64,000 bases of DNA from Sulfurimonas sp. GTDB lineage: Bacteria > Campylobacterota > Campylobacteria > Campylobacterales > Sulfurimonadaceae. This document shows positions 31,067 through 40,670 of the stretch, one piece after another (position 1 is the first letter of the stretch; each line of letters opens with the position of its first letter). Under the pieces are notes generated by a model. It made no database searches and was not told where the DNA came from. It was given only the letters and a program-made list of their open reading frames with translations. Location of the stretch: assembly GCF_029027405.1 (NCBI RefSeq), contig NZ_CP093396.1:1364001-1428000 (forward strand), read 5' to 3'. Made by a program: the position numbers and the translations under genes.

Positions 31067-31231
31067 TTATTCATAGGTGTTAAATATATTTTTTACTTTC
31101 TTAATGAAGTTAGTTTTTTCTTCAGGTAGAAGTAATTGTCTTGCTTTTCTTCTTCTTCCTAGCCTAAGTTGAAGTTGTTTTCTTATTGATTGTAATTTCA
31201 CGGGACGAAAAAAAACTTCTTTATTTATCAT
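31067..31231 (-). CDS. very short basic protein coupled to the MotB-like gene
   Basis: 54 residues, not recognised. The ATG at 31231 overlaps the stop codon of the MotB/OmpA-like gene in an ATGA arrangement, the same coupling used by real gene pairs throughout the window, and the frame ends exactly where the convergent lipoprotein gene ends. The product is rich in Lys and Arg (LRLGRRRKARQ in the middle), with no signal peptide or membrane segment, so it would stay in the cytoplasm and could bind nucleic acid or acidic partners. Confidence 0.5.
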   Translation of the reverse strand: MINKEVFFRPVKLQSIRKQLQLRLGRRRKARQLLLPEEKTNFIKKVKNIFNTYE

Positions 31232-32394
31232 CTTTTTTTCTCTTTTTTATTTAAGTAATTCATCAATTCCTGTACAGCTTCTTTATTTTTTATACGAAAT
31301 TTTATTTCAATTCTTCGAGAAGCATCTTTGTCTTCTTTATTGTTTTTGTAAAGTATTGGCTCTGCAAAAGAGCGACCACTTGCACTTAGATATTTTTGAA
31401 ATACTTTTGTCTTTTTAGGGTATCGTTTATATAGAAAATGCATAACTGCTAAAGCTCTCTTTTGAGACAAATCAAGATTATATAGATATGAACCATCAGA
31501 ATTAGTGTGACCTTCTATTGTTATTAAATCAATATAACGGCGTATTTTAGCATCACTTAACAGTACATCAATGTAACGACCAAGGACGCGACTAAGTTCT
31601 TTTTTAGCACTAGGTTTAAGTTCTGACTTACCTTGATTAAATAAAATATTTGAACTAAAAGATAAGGCACCAGTTTTAGGGTTTATTTCTATCGAATTTC
31701 CAAGTTTCTTTTTTAGTCTTCTAACTACAGAAATTTTTATACCTGTTAAATTTTTTATTTTTATTTTTGTTATATTTAAATCTTCAACAACTCTTTGGTA
31801 ATCTCTTGATTTGTAAAGTAAAGCTTTTTCAAGTTGAGCTATTTCTTCATCTCTTATTTTTATAAAAGTACTGTCTAATTCATGTCTAATATTTGCATTT
31901 TTTATAAAACTTTTTAGTTGAGAAGATTCTTTGTTTAATATATCTATTTTGAAACCTAGCATATCAGCATCTTCTTCGCTCGCTAGTAGCAACTCTTTTA
32001 GACTTTGCATTTCTCTTTCATTTAGTGATAGTTTTGAGGCTTTTGTTTCTATGCTTGAGTTTAAAAGTGATATATTATCTTTTAGTTCATTAGTTTCACT
32101 CTCAAGTCTACTTATCATAAGGCTTAGTTTTAGGTTCTCCTCTCTTGAAGCACGAAGTTTTTTTACAAGTTCACGAAGTTTGCTCTTTTTGCTAAATAGC
32201 TCTGATTCACTCATCTCTAGAGCACTTTTTTCTTTTTCGAGATTTATTCGTATAGTTTCTAAGTCACTTTGCATAAGTAGAGTTTTAACTACTATGGCTC
32301 CAACAACTAGTATGAAAACAAAAAGAAGACCAGCCATTAAGTCAGCATAAGATACCCAAAAGTTTTGATTTTCATCTTTATTTTGTTTTAGCAT
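31228..32394 (-). CDS. MotB/ZorB-like protein: one membrane segment, long coiled coil, OmpA domain
   Basis: 388 residues. The membrane segment near the start has an ion-channel aspartate, D18, in SYADLMAGLLFVFILVVG. A heptad-rich coiled coil spans about 40-215 and an OmpA/peptidoglycan-binding domain about 250-370 (ITIEGHTNSDGSYLYN, LSQKRALAVMHF, SRRIEIKFRI). That is the plan of stator B subunits including ZorB, but longer because of the coiled coil. It pairs with the MotA/TolQ-like gene 6 nt upstream. It is distinct from the flagellar MotB at 27.7 kb. Confidence 0.8.
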   Translation of the reverse strand: MLKQNKDENQNFWVSYADLMAGLLFVFILVVGAIVVKTLLMQSDLETIRINLEKEKSALEMSESELFSKKSKLRELVKKLRASREENLKLSLMISRLESETNELKDNISLLNSSIETKASKLSLNEREMQSLKELLLASEEDADMLGFKIDILNKESSQLKSFIKNANIRHELDSTFIKIRDEEIAQLEKALLYKSRDYQRVVEDLNITKIKIKNLTGIKISVVRRLKKKLGNSIEINPKTGALSFSSNILFNQGKSELKPSAKKELSRVLGRYIDVLLSDAKIRRYIDLITIEGHTNSDGSYLYNLDLSQKRALAVMHFLYKRYPKKTKVFQKYLSASGRSFAEPILYKNNKEDKDASRRIEIKFRIKNKEAVQELMNYLNKKEKKR

Positions 32395-32400
32395 AAAATT

Positions 32401-33693
32401 TTATTTATCTGATTTTAGTTGAGAAATTTGTGATACTATTGTGGCTGTTTCAGAATCAATCATTTTTAATGCATCTTGTAGTTTATTTAAAAACTTACCA
32501 TCAAAATCATCAATCTTTTTATCAAAAGAGTTACCTATTTCATTTATTTCTTCTTTCATTAAATTTATATTTTTAATGACTCCACTATATAGGTTTTGTA
32601 CATTTTGTACATTTATATTTGAGAGAGCCTCGTTAAGTTTTACACTGTTATCACTTAATACTTCGGCAATCATAACAGCACGAGAAAATTCAGATGAAAG
32701 TGCATTATGCGCTTTGTCTAAAGTGTTATGTTGATTATTTATATTTGATGAAAACTTTTCAAATTTTTCTATTGTTTTGTCAAAAATAGATGCTAAATCT
32801 TTCTGTTGAGATGCAATCATATCAACCCTATTGGCACTTTCTTCTAAAATTTTTGATACTTTAAGAGTGGCTTTTTGTTCTTGGTCTATAATTTGTTCAA
32901 ATATATTCATTCTTTGAACAAGTGCTTTGTTTAAATTTTCAACAAAAGTGCCAGATGCAAAGGTATCAAAAACACTATTTAACTTTTCAAAGTTTTCCAT
33001 ACTTTTTTTGAAGTATGTTTGTTCAATTTCTTCTTTTTGCCAAAAATATTCACTTGTTGCTTCTTTTATAAGATTTGCATCTTTTTGAAAACGACTCATT
33101 CCTGTTTTCTCAAAAAATATCCACCAAATTGATAAAAATATACCATATATAGATACATAAAAAGCTGTGCCAACTCCACCTAAAAGCTTTGAAATTTCTT
33201 CTTCAAGAACCTGTGATGTTTGTGAAGAAAAATCAGGCATGGAAATTGCAATACTAATAAAAGTACCTAAAATACCTAAGGTTGGAAATATACCAGCAGC
33301 GATTGAAGAAAAATTTTCATTTCTCATTTTTTTTGATTCTTGACTTAAAAAATCTTCTAAAGAAGCATTTGCTTTTTCAATTCCAGCAATAAAAAGAAGA
33401 TTTTTGTTTATGAAAACTGATAAGTTGCTTTTAACTTCATCAAAATTTTTTCTAAGTTTACACGAAGCGTAGTAAGCATTGTGTCTTACAAAAAACAGAT
33501 AGATAATAAAAATAGTGCCAATCATTAAAATACTGTGTATTTCAACTCGGAAATTTATAAGCTTTAGATAACCTGCAAGAGCAAAAGCTAAGAGAAAAAT
33601 AGGAATCGACAGTAACCATAAAAACCTAAAAGAACAATCCCGTCCTTTACCTAAAGTTGTTGATAATTTATTAAACTCTTCTATATTTTGCAT
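32401..33693 (-). CDS. MotA/TolQ/ZorA-like inner-membrane protein
   Basis: 430 residues. Two membrane segments near residues 22-45 and 52-70, and two more around 130-150 (GIFPTLGILGTFISIAIS) and 170-195 (GGVGTAFYVSIYGIFLSIWWIFF), the latter typical of MotA/TolQ/ExbB channels. A long cytoplasmic coiled coil follows to the C-terminus, a tail also seen in ZorA proteins. It probably forms an ion-driven unit with the MotB-like partner downstream. It is 0 nt from the exported protein upstream. Confidence 0.78.
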   Translation of the reverse strand: MQNIEEFNKLSTTLGKGRDCSFRFLWLLSIPIFLLAFALAGYLKLINFRVEIHSILMIGTIFIIYLFFVRHNAYYASCKLRKNFDEVKSNLSVFINKNLLFIAGIEKANASLEDFLSQESKKMRNENFSSIAAGIFPTLGILGTFISIAISMPDFSSQTSQVLEEEISKLLGGVGTAFYVSIYGIFLSIWWIFFEKTGMSRFQKDANLIKEATSEYFWQKEEIEQTYFKKSMENFEKLNSVFDTFASGTFVENLNKALVQRMNIFEQIIDQEQKATLKVSKILEESANRVDMIASQQKDLASIFDKTIEKFEKFSSNINNQHNTLDKAHNALSSEFSRAVMIAEVLSDNSVKLNEALSNINVQNVQNLYSGVIKNINLMKEEINEIGNSFDKKIDDFDGKFLNKLQDALKMIDSETATIVSQISQLKSDK

Positions 33694-34719
33694 TTATCTA
33701 AATACCTTATCACAATCTTTTTGAATAGCACCTGGTATAGTGGCAATAGTCATAAACTCCGACATTGAAAGGTTCGGATACATTATTGCTATATAGTATT
33801 TTGGTGCTAATATTTTAGCTACATTATCTTCTATCAAAATAGAATAAGGGAGAAGTTCACTATTTTGATAACCAGTTTTTTTCACAAACTTACTAGTTCT
33901 TCTTGACAGTTTTACACCAATGATTACAGAACCATTATCAAGATGATGTTCATAAATAATTTTTTTTGATTTTCGAGCTTTTTTTAGAAGTGTTTTGTTA
34001 TTGCCCATTGCAACTTTTATCATATCTTGATAATGAGGCATATTTTGCATAAATTGGTATCTGCTTAGTCTTGTGAATTTCACAACATCTTTTGAGTTTT
34101 TTAAATCATTAAAAATGCTGTGTAAATCATCGAGTATTTTTTTAGTTATTTTTTCATCATAATCAGTTTGCATAAATGCTTTATGTATAAACAACGGGTT
34201 TAGTATGCTAATGAGAGAATTCTTTTTATCAATAAGGAGTCTAAGAGATCCAGAGAAACCTCTTTTCTTCGTAGAAGCCATCTTTGTCATGGCATTGTTT
34301 GTAAAAATCATGGCAACATAATTTGCTTTTTTATCAATTTGATATTCACCAAGAATTTTAAAATTAGCATTTTGCAGTTTCTCTATAAGTTCTTTTTGTG
34401 AAATAAGAGCAGTTTGTAGATAAGCACTAACTCGAGAGTTTTTTACATATCCTGATTTAACATTTTTTGTAGATATAACTTCTTCTTGTTTGTAGTAATC
34501 AGGGGGAACTCTTTTACTAGAACCAATAGCATTTGTTTTCTTAACTCTAGTGATTTGCTGAGAGCTTGCAGACACGCTTACAGAAGGAACTCTAATTTTA
34601 ACCTCTGGTACTTTTGGCACATTTATAATAATTATTTTATCTTGAGATGCATATAAATTTGACAAATTTAAAAGAGATAAAAGGGATATGGACAAAACTT
34701 TAATAAAGTTTACTTTCAT
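33694..34719 (-). CDS. exported protein of unknown function, operon partner of the stator-like pair
   Basis: 341 residues with a signal peptide (1-24), a low-complexity Pro/Val/Ser part to about 70, then a folded region of alternating strands and helices (about 105-320). The region EKLQNANFKILGEYQ ... ISILNPLFIHKAFMQ recalls DUF302-type domains, but weakly. No catalytic motif was recognised. It is followed without gap by the MotA/TolQ-like gene, so it is probably the periplasmic partner of that unit. The start has CAGGA upstream. Confidence 0.6.
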   Translation of the reverse strand: MKVNFIKVLSISLLSLLNLSNLYASQDKIIIINVPKVPEVKIRVPSVSVSASSQQITRVKKTNAIGSSKRVPPDYYKQEEVISTKNVKSGYVKNSRVSAYLQTALISQKELIEKLQNANFKILGEYQIDKKANYVAMIFTNNAMTKMASTKKRGFSGSLRLLIDKKNSLISILNPLFIHKAFMQTDYDEKITKKILDDLHSIFNDLKNSKDVVKFTRLSRYQFMQNMPHYQDMIKVAMGNNKTLLKKARKSKKIIYEHHLDNGSVIIGVKLSRRTSKFVKKTGYQNSELLPYSILIEDNVAKILAPKYYIAIMYPNLSMSEFMTIATIPGAIQKDCDKVFR

Positions 34720-34737: not shown

Positions 34738-34756
34738 AGGGAGCTAGATGCTCCCT
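34738..34756 (-). promoter_or_regulatory. stem-loop before the exported-protein gene
   Basis: AGGGAGC and GCTCCCT form a 7-bp stem with a 5-nt loop. The T-rich stretch lies on the 5' side for the minus strand, so this is not an intrinsic terminator there. It may be an RNA-processing or stability element between the repeat-protein gene and the stator-like operon. Confidence 0.4.
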
Positions 34757-34772: not shown

Positions 34773-35723
34773 CTATTTTTTAGAAGCTTTAAATTTTTTG
34801 TACTCCTCATACTCTTTGTCGGTTAAAGAGTGAGTAGCGTCGTTAGCATTTTCAGTAGCACTTACAGTTGATTTACGAGTATCATTTGAGATAGTTTTAG
34901 TAGAATCATTGAAGTTATTTGAAGTAGCTTTCGTAGAGTCATTCAAGTTGTTTGAGGTTGTCTTTGTAGAGTCATTCAAGTTGTTTGAGGTTGTCTTTGT
35001 AGAGTCATTCAAGTTGTTTGAAGTTGTCTTTGTAGAGTCATTCAAGTTGTTTGAAGTTGTCTTCGCAGAGTCATTCAAGTTGTTTGAAGTTGTCTTCGCA
35101 GAGTCATTCAAGTTGTTTGAAGTTGTCTTTGTAGAGTCATTCAAGTTGTTTGAAGTCGTCTTTGTAGAGTCATTCAAGTTGTTTGAAGTCGTCTCTGTTG
35201 AGCTTTTAAGATCACCTGAAATAGTCTTTGTAGAGTCGTTTAAGTTATTAGAAGTAGTCTTTGTTGCATCATTTACATCATGAGAAACTGCTACAGTAGA
35301 GTCTTTAAAGTCTTTTGTAGCCATAGTTGAACTATCTTTAAAGTCACGACTTGTGTTAGAGATACTATCTTTAGAATCTTCTGCCAATTCAATAGTGCTA
35401 TCACGAACATCACGACTAACACTTGTTGTTGAAACTTCTCCACTTTTTACAGTAGCAATTTCACTTGTTTTAAGATCATCAGATGCTTTTACAGCTGTAT
35501 CACGAGCGTCATGTCCAAGAGAAGTAACAGTTCTTTCACCACTCTTACTTACTTCAACTCCACCATCTTTCATTGAATCAGCTGTATCACGAGCATCGTG
35601 ACTCATAGTTGTAGTAGCATCTTTCATATCTTTAAACATATCACCAAAACTAAAATCACCAGCAGTAGCTGTTGAAGCTAATAAACTTAATACTATAGTA
35701 CTCATCACAATTGTTTTTTTCAT
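34773..35723 (-). CDS. exported 11-residue-repeat, LEA-like protein
   Basis: 316 residues. Signal peptide (1-21), then nearly the whole protein follows an 11-residue period: diverged units such as SRDVRDSTIEL first, then eight consecutive units of SNNLNDS[TA]K[TA]T and one SNNFNDSTKTI. Such 11-mers form amphipathic helices in LEA-type proteins, which protect membranes or proteins during drying, cold or salt stress. No Cys, no catalytic motif. Strong ribosome-binding site AAGGGG. Exported, so probably periplasmic. The function is inferred from repeat type only. Confidence 0.7.
   Translation of the reverse strand: MKKTIVMSTIVLSLLASTATAGDFSFGDMFKDMKDATTTMSHDARDTADSMKDGGVEVSKSGERTVTSLGHDARDTAVKASDDLKTSEIATVKSGEVSTTSVSRDVRDSTIELAEDSKDSISNTSRDFKDSSTMATKDFKDSTVAVSHDVNDATKTTSNNLNDSTKTISGDLKSSTETTSNNLNDSTKTTSNNLNDSTKTTSNNLNDSAKTTSNNLNDSAKTTSNNLNDSTKTTSNNLNDSTKTTSNNLNDSTKTTSNNLNDSTKATSNNFNDSTKTISNDTRKSTVSATENANDATHSLTDKEYEEYKKFKASKK
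34900..35210 (-). repeat. 33-bp tandem repeat array
   Basis: About nine units of a 33-bp sequence containing TAGAGTCATTCAAGTTGTTT follow one another with only a few substitutions (Thr/Ala codons, third bases). Because 33 is a multiple of 3, unit gain or loss keeps the frame. Boundaries are approximate. Confidence 0.85.
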
Positions 35724-35992
35724 TTATATCCCCTTAATTTATCACTAAATATCATTGATTTTTCGCCATTGAAAATGTGATAAAAGTGTGTTATATTAAA
35801 ACTATATCCCGTAAATGCTAAAGTGTAACTTAAATTCACATAATAATTTTTTTATAAATTTTATAAATTTTTCTTGAAAAACATCCATTGTATCCCAATA
35901 ATAGCCGATTATAATTTATTCGCATACTATATATTTGTTCTTATAATGAATATTGAATAAGCCCTTGGTTGTGATGTTAAATGATGGCCAAG

Positions 35993-36109: not shown

Positions 36110-36517
36110 GTGAAAAATATATTAACAACCTTATTGTTAAGTACAGCACTTTTTTCGAGTGTATATACAAAGCAAGACAGAATCAAAGATATGCAAGTTA
36201 TGGCAGAAGCAATGACAACAATTGAAACTGGTTTTTTTTATAACAATAACGATATAGTGCAAAATGGTGCTTTATCTCTCTCAGATGCTATAAGAAGAAT
36301 TAAGCCACCATTGGAAGTTAAAGAAGAAAAAGACCCAATGGCTAGATACATGAATAATAAAGTAGTTTTTAGTAATAAAATAGTAAAGACTATCGATAAA
36401 AAAGCTAAGATAATTATAGAAAGATTTGCTGTTGGTGATGTTCAAGCCGCAACGCAAGCATATACAAAAATAATGAAGCAATGTATGAGATGTCATCACG
36501 AAATTCGTCAATGGTGA
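36110..36517 (+). CDS. small periplasmic c-type cytochrome, C-terminal heme site
   Basis: 135 residues with GTG start after AAAGGG. Signal peptide (1-20), a helical body, and one CxxCH (CMRCH, residues 125-129) ten residues before the end. A C-terminal heme motif on a helical domain is the plan of cytochrome c'/c-556-like proteins. It precedes the membrane-fusion protein of an RND pump by 4 nt, which suggests co-expression; whether it passes electrons or senses a small molecule is unknown. Confidence 0.75.
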   Translation: MKNILTTLLLSTALFSSVYTKQDRIKDMQVMAEAMTTIETGFFYNNNDIVQNGALSLSDAIRRIKPPLEVKEEKDPMARYMNNKVVFSNKIVKTIDKKAKIIIERFAVGDVQAATQAYTKIMKQCMRCHHEIRQW

Positions 36518-36521
36518 TGTA

Positions 36522-37334
36522 TTGAAAAATATTTTTTTAATATCAATTATTTTATTTAGTGTGAATATTTTAGCTTTTGAATTGCCAATAACAGGAACTG
36601 TAGTCTCGTATAACCAAAAAATGGTTGGAGCAAGATATATGGGTTATATCAAAAACATATATTTTGATATTGGAGACAGGGTAGAAAGAGAGGACACTCT
36701 TTTTGAAATGGAATCTGCTGAGTTTGATATTTTAAAATCTCAAGCAGATTTAGCTCTAGAACAAGCGAATTCCATTGTGAATATGTATAAAACTCGTATG
36801 GATTCTATTAATAGAGAGCGAAAAGCTTTAAAAAAACAAGGTATGTTTAATCCTGAAGATATGCAGAACCTTGATATTACAGCAAATAATGTTTCAGCAG
36901 GACTTGCATCTGCTCAAGTTCTTGTTAAAAATGCTGCTTCAAAACTAAAACAAGTTGCAACTATAACAGGTTACCTCGAGATTAAAGCACCAAATAGTGG
37001 AATAATAGTTGAAAAAAGAATTCGTGTTGGAGATTTAGTAGCTCCTGGTATGCTTGGTATGATTATTGTAGATTTAGAGCATCTACAGATTGAGGGTGAA
37101 GTTGCAGAATCAGATTTAAAATATGTAAATAAATATCAAAAAGTAAAAATAGAAATCCCATCTATTAGTTATAGGGATACAGGTTACATTAAATCAGTAG
37201 TTCCAAGTGCAAATCCTATGGCGCACACATTTAAAATAATTATTAACTTTAAAAAAAAGAGTAATAAAATATTTCCTGGAATGTATGCGAAAATTCTCAT
37301 TAAAATAGATGAAAAATATTATACAAGAGATTAA
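36522..37334 (+). CDS. RND efflux membrane-fusion protein (periplasmic adaptor)
   Basis: 270 residues from a TTG start. Signal peptide (1-18), lipoyl-like halves (GTVVSYNQKMVGARYMGYI near 24 and IKAPNSGIIVEKRIRVGDLV near 155), an alpha-helical hairpin between them (about 70-140), and a beta-barrel after it. Shorter than the usual 350-400 residues, because the C-terminal membrane-proximal domain is reduced. It would link the split RND permease downstream to an outer-membrane channel, which is not coded here. Confidence 0.85.
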   Translation: MKNIFLISIILFSVNILAFELPITGTVVSYNQKMVGARYMGYIKNIYFDIGDRVEREDTLFEMESAEFDILKSQADLALEQANSIVNMYKTRMDSINRERKALKKQGMFNPEDMQNLDITANNVSAGLASAQVLVKNAASKLKQVATITGYLEIKAPNSGIIVEKRIRVGDLVAPGMLGMIIVDLEHLQIEGEVAESDLKYVNKYQKVKIEIPSISYRDTGYIKSVVPSANPMAHTFKIIINFKKKSNKIFPGMYAKILIKIDEKYYTRD

Positions 37335-37338
37335 GTAA

Positions 37339-38916
37339 GTGTCTGAGGATTATAAAAGCAAAAATATAGCAGGACACTTAGCCGAAGCATTTTTGAATAA
37401 TCCGCTAACTATGCTGTTTGCAATTTCGATTATCCTTCTTGGATATATCACCTTAAATATTGCACCAAGAGAAGAGGATCCACAAATAGAAGTAAGCGGT
37501 GGTTCAATTATTATTATGATACCAGGAGCATCTCCAAAAGCTATAACGAATGTTGTTGTAAAACCACTTGAGAGAAGGATACGAGAGATTAAAGGGGTAG
37601 AGCATATTTATGGCACTGCCATGAATAATGTCGGTATGATAAATGTACAATATTTCATAGGCGAAGATAGAGAATCCTCAAATTTAAAGCTGTATGATAA
37701 AGTAATGCAAAATATGGATACTTTACCAAAAGGCATAGGAATGCCATTGGTAAAACCTTTTGATATAGATATTGATATTCCTGTTATTACTGTTGCTTTT
37801 TATCAAAAAGACGCATCTAAACCAAGCACTTTAAAACAATATCATACAGTAAGAGAAATTCAACAAGAGATAAATGCACTAAACAATGTATCTAAAAGTA
37901 CTCTAAAGGGTATGCATAAACCACAGTTTAATATACAAGTAGATATAGATAAGTTATCTTCTTATCATCTTTCTTTAGGTCAAATAGCAAGTTCTGTAAA
38001 AGCTATTGCAACAAATGCACCAAATATCAATGCTCCTACAAGTAGTAATTCTATAATTGTTTTTGGTGTTAAAAATGCAATAGAAGATATAGATGATTTG
38101 AAAGATTTAATAATTGCACAATACATGGGTTCCCCAATTTATCTTAAAAATGTTGCAAAGATTGAGTATGGTTATGATGTACAACATTTTCAAAATTCTC
38201 TTATTGCACAAAGAGATAACAACTCTTCTTTTGATAGTCCAGTTCAACAAGTTACATTAACTGTATCAAAGTTAAAAGGTACAAATGCTGTTTATGTTGC
38301 CCAAGATGTTATAGATTTACTAGATGAAAGAAGTGAGTTTTTCAATCAAGAAGGCATAGGTTATATTATTACTAGAAACTATGGAGAAAGAGCAAATGAA
38401 GCTGTTGGTGAACTTATGCATCATCTTGTAATTACTATTGGAATTATTGGTCTTATTCTTATTCCTTTTCTTGGATGGAGAGAGTCTTTAGTTGTATCTA
38501 TTGCAGTTCCTATGATTTTAGCCGCAACACTTTTTATAGCTTATATGACAGATCAAACTATAAATAGAATTACACTTTTCGCATTTTTACTTAGTCTAGG
38601 GCTTATTGTAGATGATGCAATTATTGTTATTGAAAACATACATAGAAGAATGCATCTAAAAGAAACACAAGATCATAGTTTTGATCGCATCATCGTTGAA
38701 GCAACAGATGAAATAGGACCATCTACAAACATCGCTACAATAGCAATCATTTTGACGATGGTTCCTATGGGGTTTGTAGGTGGAATGATGGGTCAGTTTA
38801 TGAAACCTATACCATTAAATGTTCCAGTTGCTTTAGCAGTTTCACTTTTTGTAGCTTATGTGTTTACTCCATTTTTAGCAAAGAAGATGATTAAACGCGC
38901 GAAAGGAACGCATTAA
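37339..38916 (+). CDS. RND transporter permease, N-terminal half protein
   Basis: 525 residues from GTG. One membrane segment (about 18-37), a large periplasmic porter region, then five segments (about 355-520). The fourth membrane segment has LGLIVDDAIIVIEN, the two Asp of the proton relay. The protein ends in FLAKKMIKRAKGTH after segment 6, exactly the middle of a normal 1000-1050 residue RND permease. The stop codon overlaps the next start by one base (TAATG), so both halves are made together. COG0841-like; substrate unknown. Confidence 0.87.
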   Translation: MSEDYKSKNIAGHLAEAFLNNPLTMLFAISIILLGYITLNIAPREEDPQIEVSGGSIIIMIPGASPKAITNVVVKPLERRIREIKGVEHIYGTAMNNVGMINVQYFIGEDRESSNLKLYDKVMQNMDTLPKGIGMPLVKPFDIDIDIPVITVAFYQKDASKPSTLKQYHTVREIQQEINALNNVSKSTLKGMHKPQFNIQVDIDKLSSYHLSLGQIASSVKAIATNAPNINAPTSSNSIIVFGVKNAIEDIDDLKDLIIAQYMGSPIYLKNVAKIEYGYDVQHFQNSLIAQRDNNSSFDSPVQQVTLTVSKLKGTNAVYVAQDVIDLLDERSEFFNQEGIGYIITRNYGERANEAVGELMHHLVITIGIIGLILIPFLGWRESLVVSIAVPMILAATLFIAYMTDQTINRITLFAFLLSLGLIVDDAIIVIENIHRRMHLKETQDHSFDRIIVEATDEIGPSTNIATIAIILTMVPMGFVGGMMGQFMKPIPLNVPVALAVSLFVAYVFTPFLAKKMIKRAKGTH

Positions 38917-40670
38917 TGGAAGAACTTATTTATGGCATCATAGGTTCAAAAGCTAAAAGAAAAAAAGTGATTTTATATATAGTATTGGCTTTTTTATTTT
39001 CTATAATGCTCATTCCTACAAAGTTGGTCTTGGCAAAAATGCTACCTGGGAAAAGTGCAAATACCTTTAGCATCTATGTTGATACAGCAACAAATAGCTC
39101 CTTAGAAGAAACTAGAGCTGTAGCAAACTGTGTTTTAGGGTATTTAAAAAAAGAAGAAGCTGTAAAAAATGTTGAAGTATATTTAGCTCAAGGTGCACCA
39201 CTTGATTATGCAGGATTGGTTAAAGGTAGTGCTTTAAAAAGAATGAAAAATCAGGCTGAAATGGTTGTAAACCTTAGTGATAAAAATTCTCGTGATGAAG
39301 CATCATATAAAATGGTGCATAGAATTCGTCCTATAATACAAAAAGCTTGCCAAACTTTAACTAATTATAGAACCGTAAAATTTGTAGAGATGCCATCAGG
39401 TCCACCAACTTTTGCAACTTTAGAGATTAATATTTTTGGTAAAGATGATAACTTGATGCGTAGGACTGCTGAGCGAGTAGCTATGATATTAGGTAAAACT
39501 GATGGTTTAGTTGATATAGATGTTATGCAAGATGACATATATCCATATTTTGAAATCATTCCAGATAAAGAAAAAATTATAAAAAGTGGTCTTAGTGTTG
39601 ATCAGGTAAATAATATTTTATATATTGCTTTTGAGGGCATGGTTGTTGCTGTTAAAAACTCTAAAAAACAACAAGATCAAATTCCGATTTTTGTTCGTCT
39701 TGATGATAAAAGTAGAGAGATAAGGTCAAATTCCAAATCAGCGATATACTTTAAACTGTCAAGATTAAAACTATTAAATCAAAGAGGCATGATGATACCC
39801 ATAAGAGAGGTTATAAGTGTAAATGAGATTCCATCAAGTCCAACTATTTTTAGAAAAAATTTACAAAATTTTGTAAGCATTAGTGCAGAATGTGATTTAG
39901 TTTCTCAGCTATACCCACTTTTAGAAGCTAGGGATACTATAATAGAGAAACTATCGGATGATTTTAATGTTACAAAAGTAGACGGAATGTCAACTTACAT
40001 GTTTGACTTAAATTTAGTAGAAAAAAATTCAGGTAAAAAATTGTTGCTTAGATGGGATGGAGAGATGAAAGTTTCTCTTGATACCTTTCGTGACTTAGGT
40101 GGTGCTTTTATAGCAGCTCTTATTTTAATGTTCTTACTTATGGTAATGTATTACAAGTCATTTGCCTTGAGTGGTATTATTTTATTAGCAAGTTTTTTGT
40201 CTATCATTGGAGTAATTACAGGGCATTTTATTACAGATATGATTTCACTTTTTTTTGCGGACATCAACTTTTTTTTAACAGCCACTTCACTCATTGGTTT
40301 TATCTCTTTAATGGGAATTAGTGCTAGAAGTTCATTGTTACTAATAGATTTTTCTATGGCACTTATAGAAAAAGGTGTAGAGAAAAAAAGAGCTATTGCT
40401 ATCTCAACAGCAACAAGAGCGAAGCCTATTGTTATGACAGCGGTTGCAATTATTTTAGGTTCATTGTTGCTCTCAACTGACCCTATTTTTGGTGGATTAG
40501 GTGTTGCTTTGATTTTTGGCTCTATCGCTTCTACTGTGGTGTCTTTGTTCCTTGTTCCTGTTCTCATAGTAAATACTGTGGCGATTTGTCCCAAAGGAAT
40601 GGATCATAGACATCATGAATGTCATGGAGGGATTGATAAACATGTGGACCCTGAAGAGATGGGGTTATAA
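38916..40670 (+). CDS. RND transporter permease, C-terminal half protein
   Basis: 584 residues. Corresponds to membrane segments 7-12: one segment (about 15-37), a periplasmic porter domain, then five segments (about 390-565) with GISARSSLLLIDF in the segment equivalent to TM10. The C-terminus is His-rich (HRHHECHGG), which may bind metal. Taken with the previous gene it makes a full-length pump of about 1109 residues, so two chains probably assemble as a heterodimer repeated three times. Confidence 0.87.
   Translation: MEELIYGIIGSKAKRKKVILYIVLAFLFSIMLIPTKLVLAKMLPGKSANTFSIYVDTATNSSLEETRAVANCVLGYLKKEEAVKNVEVYLAQGAPLDYAGLVKGSALKRMKNQAEMVVNLSDKNSRDEASYKMVHRIRPIIQKACQTLTNYRTVKFVEMPSGPPTFATLEINIFGKDDNLMRRTAERVAMILGKTDGLVDIDVMQDDIYPYFEIIPDKEKIIKSGLSVDQVNNILYIAFEGMVVAVKNSKKQQDQIPIFVRLDDKSREIRSNSKSAIYFKLSRLKLLNQRGMMIPIREVISVNEIPSSPTIFRKNLQNFVSISAECDLVSQLYPLLEARDTIIEKLSDDFNVTKVDGMSTYMFDLNLVEKNSGKKLLLRWDGEMKVSLDTFRDLGGAFIAALILMFLLMVMYYKSFALSGIILLASFLSIIGVITGHFITDMISLFFADINFFLTATSLIGFISLMGISARSSLLLIDFSMALIEKGVEKKRAIAISTATRAKPIVMTAVAIILGSLLLSTDPIFGGLGVALIFGSIASTVVSLFLVPVLIVNTVAICPKGMDHRHHECHGGIDKHVDPEEMGL

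Follow-up and report, generated by a model that had tools for sequence, protein, structure and literature searches.

Helices built of 11-residue units (hendecads), arrays of variable length and apolipoprotein-like proteins are known kinds of protein architecture. The exchangeable apolipoproteins (PF01442) and insect apolipophorin III (PF07464) are secreted and consist of amphipathic helical repeats of 11 residues. LEA group 3 proteins (LEA_4, PF02987) have the same period, and are associated with the idea of a disordered chain that becomes helical. Perilipin 4, as far as it is portrayed in PMC5889406, contains a long, unbroken, Thr-rich array based on 11 residues, which is weakly amphipathic and almost free of aromatic residues. 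Expansion of the perilipin 4 repeat occurs (PMC7360652).

Here, an apparently exported hendecad-repeat protein of Sulfurimonas sp. is compared with these systems; it is called FAM in the following. With the apolipoproteins and apolipophorin III it shares secretion and the amphipathic 11-residue repeats, but it is more polar, lacks Pro in the array, is bacterial and has a conserved N-terminal head; the likeness is most likely convergent. Perilipin 4 shares the long Thr-rich array, but differs in its higher unit of 33 residues, cytosolic location, net positive charge and hydrophobic fraction (0.35, compared with 0.12–0.20 for FAM; values for perilipin 4 as given in PMC5889406). FAM gives the impression of a helix that coats a surface or serves as scaffold, not of a drought-protection protein. 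No earlier description of an exported bacterial family of this kind, with its gene module, promoter and sequon avoidance, was found in the open-licence literature.

Results and Discussion

FAM is an apparently exported protein with a 33-bp tandem array

FAM (316 aa, ATG start) is encoded on the reverse strand at 34,773–35,723 of the window, the stretch of 64,000 nucleotides that was analyzed, as judged from the ORF call and from its relatives, and is the single match in its own 2.83-Mb single-contig genome. Residues 1–21 (MKKTIVMSTIVLSLLASTATA; 35,661–35,723, reverse strand) form an apparent signal peptide, read from sequence alone, in agreement with the export signal proposed in a preliminary description of this DNA. 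GDFSFG comes directly after MKKTIVMSTIVLSLLASTATA, and the mature N-terminus it belongs to (GDFSFGDMFKDMKD, residues 22–35; 35,619–35,660, reverse strand) is near-invariant: DFSFGDMF[KR]DMK[DE] was counted in 71 of 81 family proteins, and the remaining 10 carry near-variants. Part of this uniformity stems from how the proteins were selected, because MF[KR]DMK[DE] was one of the two search patterns. Apparently, FAM is a Sec-exported, periplasmic protein made almost entirely of hendecads. Its C-terminal residue is Lys in only 41 of the 70 proteins counted (L, D, I, Q, H, F, S or Y in the others), and a peptidoglycan-linked, Lpp-like spacer was therefore rejected as a general explanation.

Tandem Repeats Finder placed a 33-bp array of 11.1 copies at 34,900–35,264 (reverse strand; 89% matches and a score of 509); none of the other four arrays in the window is as strong. 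The window protein has 14 in-register units, the commonest being STKTTSNNLND. At the core stands a run of eight units, STETTSNNLND followed by seven of the STKTTSNNLND/SAKTTSNNLND type, which are nearly identical at the DNA level and include two pairs of identical neighbors, whereas the outer units have diverged; the array had been described as nearly perfect, which is true of the core run but not of the outer units. Near-identical central units together with identical neighbor pairs favor recent local duplication. Within the array, lag-11 identity of the protein was 0.82, compared with 0.21 in the N-terminal half. Position-specific composition of 700 family array units yielded the consensus S-T/V-K-T-V/I-S-N-D/N-x-N/R-D, and the family arrays contain no Pro, Cys or Trp. 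When concerted evolution was probed by a nearest-unit test, 346 of 829 units were nearest to a unit of their own array, ties included.

The family is so far seen in Campylobacterota and varies by whole units

When the window's own genome and those of 59 relatives were searched, 14 of these 60 gave matches, of which 11 were counted as the long array form; the weak matches L013, L014 and L019 were excluded from the family, and the short relatives in G043 from the array-bearing count. A scan of GTDB species genomes yielded 116 relatives. Among the best 80 of these 116, all record titles but one point to Campylobacterota or to a group within it (such as Sulfurimonas, Sulfurovum, Helicobacteraceae, Campylobacteraceae or Epsilonproteobacteria); the exception reads just "bacterium". 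A phylum sample of 397 genomes gave 20 with a match, of which six belong to the window's genus and the others to further families of the same order. As seen here (best 80 of 116), the family thus appears confined to Campylobacterota, mostly kin of Sulfurimonas and Sulfurovum. From their genus names, the carriers are presumably sulfur oxidizers, and we take many of their record titles to indicate vents, sulfidic caves, lakes or marine samples, the sites being partly drawn from project names.

Family proteins were 144–498 aa long (median 283; 68 complete proteins of 81); the shortest, L055 (144 aa), ends abruptly and may be broken, and a longer relative of 532 aa is encoded in the two-contig genome G009. 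In the closest comparisons, the window protein differs from L021 by 33 aa, or three units, and from its counterpart in the single-contig genome G389 by 66 aa, or six units (counted by hand from a shared internal Met); the proteins of G322 and G281, both single-contig, differ by two units (383 vs 361 aa). For 351 pairs, identity over the N-terminal 130 aa was 85% or more; of these, 118 differed in length by a multiple of 11 (105 non-zero, 13 zero), compared with ∼32 expected by chance; the tails vary as well, so that most of the 351 pairs do not fit multiples of 11 exactly. These comparisons, drawn between relatives, agree with the earlier proposal that the array can change in size without loss of frame. 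A constant number of units across strains, together with a lack of helix formation, had been named beforehand as the contrary observation; unit number instead varies across relatives. The accompanying warning that short reads may miscount the units was fair: in 8 of the 80 best of 116 relatives the gene runs off the 3′ contig end within the repeat part, compared with ∼2.9 expected if the array is assumed to measure 430 bp.

Two loci are unusual in arrangement. In G265 (C1:1251264-1252919), two oppositely oriented cytochrome matches flank overlapping matches to the FAM N-terminus on both strands, an arrangement reminiscent of an inverted duplication. In G343 (C66:35233-37695), three consecutive FAM matches were found, and a fourth lies on a different contig.

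FAM is linked to a cytochrome-adaptor module

The surroundings of FAM are conserved (denominators are the loci with enough flank to test). Divergent from FAM, a small c-type cytochrome is encoded (36,110–36,517, forward strand), which carries a C-terminal CxxCH and resembles cytochrome c′ weakly, below the cut-off. Of 70 testable loci, 66 have such a gene in the vicinity of FAM, at a median gap of 210 bp, and all 63 clustered cytochrome copies have CxxCH near the C-terminus. An RND/HlyD-type periplasmic adaptor (MFP; 36,522–37,334, forward strand) was found in 65 of 68 testable loci. The RND permease is encoded by an N-terminal (37,339–38,916, forward strand; ACR_tran positions 5–494 of 1021) and a C-terminal half-gene (38,916–40,670, forward strand; positions 526–1017 of 1021), and the halves were matched in 21 of the 31 loci that offered 5.5 kb of flank on either side. 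Since two adjacent half-length RND ORFs occur in 34 of 81 loci, including the window, the split is no sequencing error. Neither cytochrome nor adaptor was found near L023, L057 and L097, and L094 is without the cytochrome.

The association also holds at the level of genomes. In the set of 60, a close cytochrome (at least 120 bits, a threshold chosen post hoc from the gap down to the next score, 57 bits) was present in all 11 array-bearing genomes and in two of the other 49, G002 and G036; only G002 is a clear exception, because the contig of G036 ends just past the cytochrome. G043, with its array-less relatives, gave no cytochrome match. In 15 further array-bearing genomes (from the 20 matching ones, omitting G000, G040 and G042 as already counted and G285 and G367 as weak), a cytochrome match was found every time (103–242 bits), in 14 cases on the contig carrying FAM; eight of these exceed 120 bits and seven would miss that threshold.

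Next downstream of FAM, and in the same direction, lies the gene for another exported protein (c2, 341 aa; 33,694–34,719, reverse strand), which was present in 48 of 62 testable loci, in 46 of the 48 downstream and on the same strand as FAM. Relatives of c2 (e.g., L063:10416-12446) come in forms of ∼340 and ∼700 aa, plus three of ∼1,050 aa; a 676-aa relative, the one longer form scanned, has a DUF302 match in its N-terminal half. Between FAM and c2, an inverted repeat without a T-run, AGGGAGC-N5-GCTCCCT (34,738–34,756), was spotted by eye; it is possibly an mRNA processing or stabilizing hairpin, and the terminator listing of the window has no terminator at this site.

A MotA/ExbB-like protein with a long, helical-looking tail is encoded at 31,228–33,693 (reverse strand), together with an OmpA-domain partner. 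Counterparts of these ExbB-like and OmpA-like genes were found in 5 of 28 and 6 of 27 testable loci (8 and 7 of the 80 best of 116 relatives overall). A Zorya-like system was rejected, the resemblance of the ExbB-like gene to ZorA being far below cut-offs and both genes being rarely kept near FAM.

Upstream of FAM, a putative tandem operator with a −10-like element (TTTAAG-N6-TTTA-N12-TATAGT; 35,801–35,834, reverse strand) emerged from comparison of upstream regions. TTTAAG-N6-TYYA was present in 50 of 75 FAM upstream regions, compared with a mean of 0.8 and a maximum of 3 in 50 dinucleotide shuffles, and G-N-TA-N3-T stands at a fixed distance after it; for 38 of these 50, the distance from the beginning of the motif to the start codon is ∼61–70 bp, and in the window it is 111 bp. 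The full motif has one copy in the window, that at FAM, and three in the whole genome, in which a reversed-pattern control gives one hit. Because the two other copies sit near genes that were named by eye as integrase-like, or as transposase-like and unknown, and because the control also hits once, no regulon was drawn from them. The HP1043 operator of Helicobacter pylori is given as ttTAAG-5bp-tTTAAg and overlaps the promoter (PMC8345958). Compared with that consensus, the FAM operator has TTTAAG, the 5-bp gap, TT and A at key places, and the promoter overlap in common; its first half-site is exact, and in the second, three of the four key bases are retained, with T/C in place of A at the remaining one. 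By analogy, an HsrA/CosR orthologue may bind the candidate operator.

The arrays avoid the acidic N-glycosylation sequon

N-x-S/T is abundant in the FAM arrays. The sequon of the bacterial oligosaccharyltransferase PglB, D/E-x-N-x-S/T, is absent from the window protein and occurred only seven times in 78 proteins, compared with 94.6 in shuffles (of the 81 proteins, L052, L053 and L096 were left out for masked residues; units could be placed in 77). When residues were shuffled by column within each protein (892 in-register units, 77 proteins, 500 shuffles), 115.9 sequons were expected, with a minimum of 100, again compared with seven observed. In strict register, with D at position 11, none of 742 units contained the sequon (86.6 expected); this register misses the seven cases because those units have S or K at 11. 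With the acid and Ser/Thr positions kept as they are, no comparable depletion was seen in the 892 units when other residues were considered at the Asn position: R (286 vs 187.4 expected), T (57 vs 52.8), S (21 vs 25.0), K (30 vs 22.9), A (6 vs 9.4) or D (12 vs 18.8). Nor were sequons depleted in c2 (34 vs 21.4), in the two RND halves (19 vs 9.8 and 21 vs 8.6) or in a set of proteins from the same loci with signal-peptide-like N-termini picked with a crude pattern (85 vs 49.5). Fewer sequons than expected were, however, also counted in the adaptor (2 vs 9.5) and the cytochrome (0 vs 4.8).

An STT3/PglB homologue is encoded in the window's genome, in 47 of the 60 genomes overall and in 12 of the 15 FAM genomes tested (16 of 80 loci were chosen for this test, including the four with sequons). 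The three FAM genomes without a match are all drafts; one of them (G063, holding L098) has one sequon, and the holders of L075 and L045 have none. PglB of Campylobacterota generally needs an acidic residue at −2, with exceptions (PMC6025236), and the specificity of the Sulfurimonas enzyme may differ. An N-glycosylated repeat, a candidate in view of the many N-D-S units and the STT3/PglB homologue, was rejected for the classical sequon, which is depleted; glycosylation at the non-acidic N-x-S/T sites of the array is possible.

The gap in sequons, as opposed to the function of FAM, could also be a founder effect: if a few ancestral unit types (NN, DR and DNDA) were amplified, D8-N10-S1 would be rare for historical reasons and not because of selection. 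Units do copy one another, so that the sequon counts are not independent, and much of the D-x-N-D-A class may stem from a single ancestral unit, SHDVNDA. Against such a history, the 306 units with N10 and Ser/Thr at +2 hold an acidic residue at −3 in 90 cases (36 proteins) but at −2 in only seven, which come from four proteins (L058, L080, L086 and L098), whereas position −2 is acidic in 526 of the other 586 units and in 58 of the 73 with Asn but without Ser/Thr at +2. Furthermore, when the proteins were clustered at 80% identity, all six informative clusters agreed, two of them resting on three or fewer Asn-Ser/Thr units. A founder effect is less likely than not. The array amounts to a natural experiment, with hundreds of similar Asn sites that often have an acidic residue at −2, but not when +2 is Ser/Thr, and avoidance of bacterial N-glycosylation thereby becomes measurable in natural sequence. 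No related description of such avoidance was found in the open-licence literature.

A weakly amphipathic helix and what it may do

Across 68 complete proteins, hydrophobic residues recur with a period of 3.66 (5–95% range 3.655–3.665), which equals 11/3. The hydrophobic moment of the window array at 11/3 residues per turn was 0.385, compared with 0.059 ± 0.031 in shuffles, none of 1,000 of which reached it; the 11-residue units are thus amphipathic, as first suggested. For the family arrays the moment was 0.384 and mean hydrophobicity was below zero (−0.075). Table 1 of PMC5889406 lists moments of 0.257 (Plin4), 0.30 (alpha-synuclein), 0.35 (Plin3), 0.39 (ApoA-I) and 0.48 (CCTalpha), a range that includes the FAM value, although those moments are averaged over short helices and that of FAM over the whole array. 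The hydrophobic fraction, 0.122 for the window array and 0.196 for the family, falls below the range of 0.32–0.47 for known 11-mer surface helices (0.35–0.47 for Plin4, Plin3, ApoA-I and alpha-synuclein) given in the same source.

At E ≤ 1, the apolipoprotein profile PF01442 matched all 29 members scanned (best E 8.2e-17) and the ApoLp-III profile (PF07464) 25 of the 29; the curated PF01442 cut-off of 90 bits was reached neither by the window protein (28.8 bits) nor by L045, and hendecad profiles can match each other by convergence. No solved structure matched FAM by sequence at E ≤ 1. AlphaFold models showed helices at low confidence, with a mean pLDDT of 41.6 for the full length (261 of 316 residues below 50) and 47.4 for the N-terminal half (103 of 172), and a fold search of the PDB with the low-confidence model returned nothing at E ≤ 0.001 and one meaningless hit (E 9.7). 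Low confidence of this sort would be expected if the chain folds only on a partner or surface, without proving it.

Tentatively, we favor the reading that FAM is an amphipathic helix in the periplasm, free of sugar and adjustable in length, that serves as a surface coat or scaffold together with the cytochrome-adaptor module. The hydrophobic head at the mature N-terminus, FSFGDMFKDMK, would dock the protein. The repeat region, loose in solution, would probably become one long, weakly amphipathic helix along a hydrophobic surface, much as apolipoproteins and perilipins do, each hendecad making three helical turns and contributing to a narrow T/V-V/I-x stripe. That surface may be the outer or inner membrane, or a particle of poorly soluble substrate. 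If every unit contributed a little binding, length would be tunable and gains or losses of 33 bp would be tolerated; if the surface of the units had to remain free of glycans, D/E-x-N-x-S/T would be excluded from the array. FAM would be switched on from the tandem TTTAAG-type operator and serve the adjoining cytochrome c-adaptor (-RND) module. With the low hydrophobic fraction, binding to a surface could be too weak, and T, S, N and D, being poor helix formers, count against a surface helix as well.

The body of FAM may either cover a surface or self-associate. In the latter case two, three or four chains would form a right-handed coil with the T/V-V/I-x stripe as its core, and FAM would be a periplasmic spacer or fiber whose length is set by the number of units. 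The period of 3.66 and the 3-4-4 spacing of hydrophobic positions 2, 5 and 9 are those of a hendecad coiled-coil core, the core residues are β-branched, and packing would need a glycan-free flank. Position 9, at the center of the stripe, is A, T, L, S or V and often polar, the core of the window units (T-T-L) is weak for a coil, and neither a relative among solved structures (E ≤ 1) nor a confident model came to its aid; such a rod is the less likely of the two. The same hydrophobic positions coincide with those of LEA group 3, which counts for a protectant that is disordered in water and shields envelope membranes and proteins on drying, freezing or salt, as do the amphipathic 11-residue units. 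Between these positions, positions 6–8 included, we take the group 3 consensus to have other residues. The LEA label given to FAM at the outset did not survive: LEA_4 (PF02987) did not match the window protein at E ≤ 1 and matched six of the 29 members weakly (best E 0.014), far behind the apolipoprotein profiles, and membership was rejected. Export signal and conserved gene neighborhood also set FAM apart from LEA group 3, and linkage to one cytochrome/adaptor module and a dedicated promoter fit a specific partner better. Module, promoter and sequon avoidance had gone unnoticed at the outset. Desiccation is an unlikely driver, because many carrier titles point to vents, sulfidic caves, lakes and marine samples, and a protectant role as a whole is improbable. 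More remote still is a type I-like ice-binding helix, in which Thr recurs at intervals of 11 residues. Its motif, T-x2-N-x7, is approached by T-x2-N at 20 places in the window protein, but this antifreeze pattern is not conserved across the family, where the Thr is mostly Val or Ile (position 5: V 53%, I 26%, A 12%, T 7%); the window array has no Ala-rich face, and many carriers are apparently from vents, according to record titles.

A more specific version of the favored coat or scaffold, namely that FAM is a bacterial, periplasmic counterpart of apolipoproteins and perilipins, is a long shot at present. In this version FAM would coat or carry a hydrophobic substrate, perhaps zero-valent sulfur or a lipid, on behalf of a cytochrome c-linked RND/adaptor module of sulfur-oxidizing Campylobacterota; the number of units would tune avidity, and selection would have purged PglB sequons to keep the helix sugar-free. 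How Campylobacterota activate insoluble sulfur is not clearly understood, as stated in PMC10045233, and a coat-like helix that is exported and belongs with a single cytochrome/transport module would be a concrete candidate to consider. In some Sulfurimonas (L029, L034 and G036 among those inspected), the cytochrome-adaptor operon continues toward LolA-like and MMPL/HAE3 transporter genes, which hints at the handling of lipids or hydrophobes in a minority of loci.
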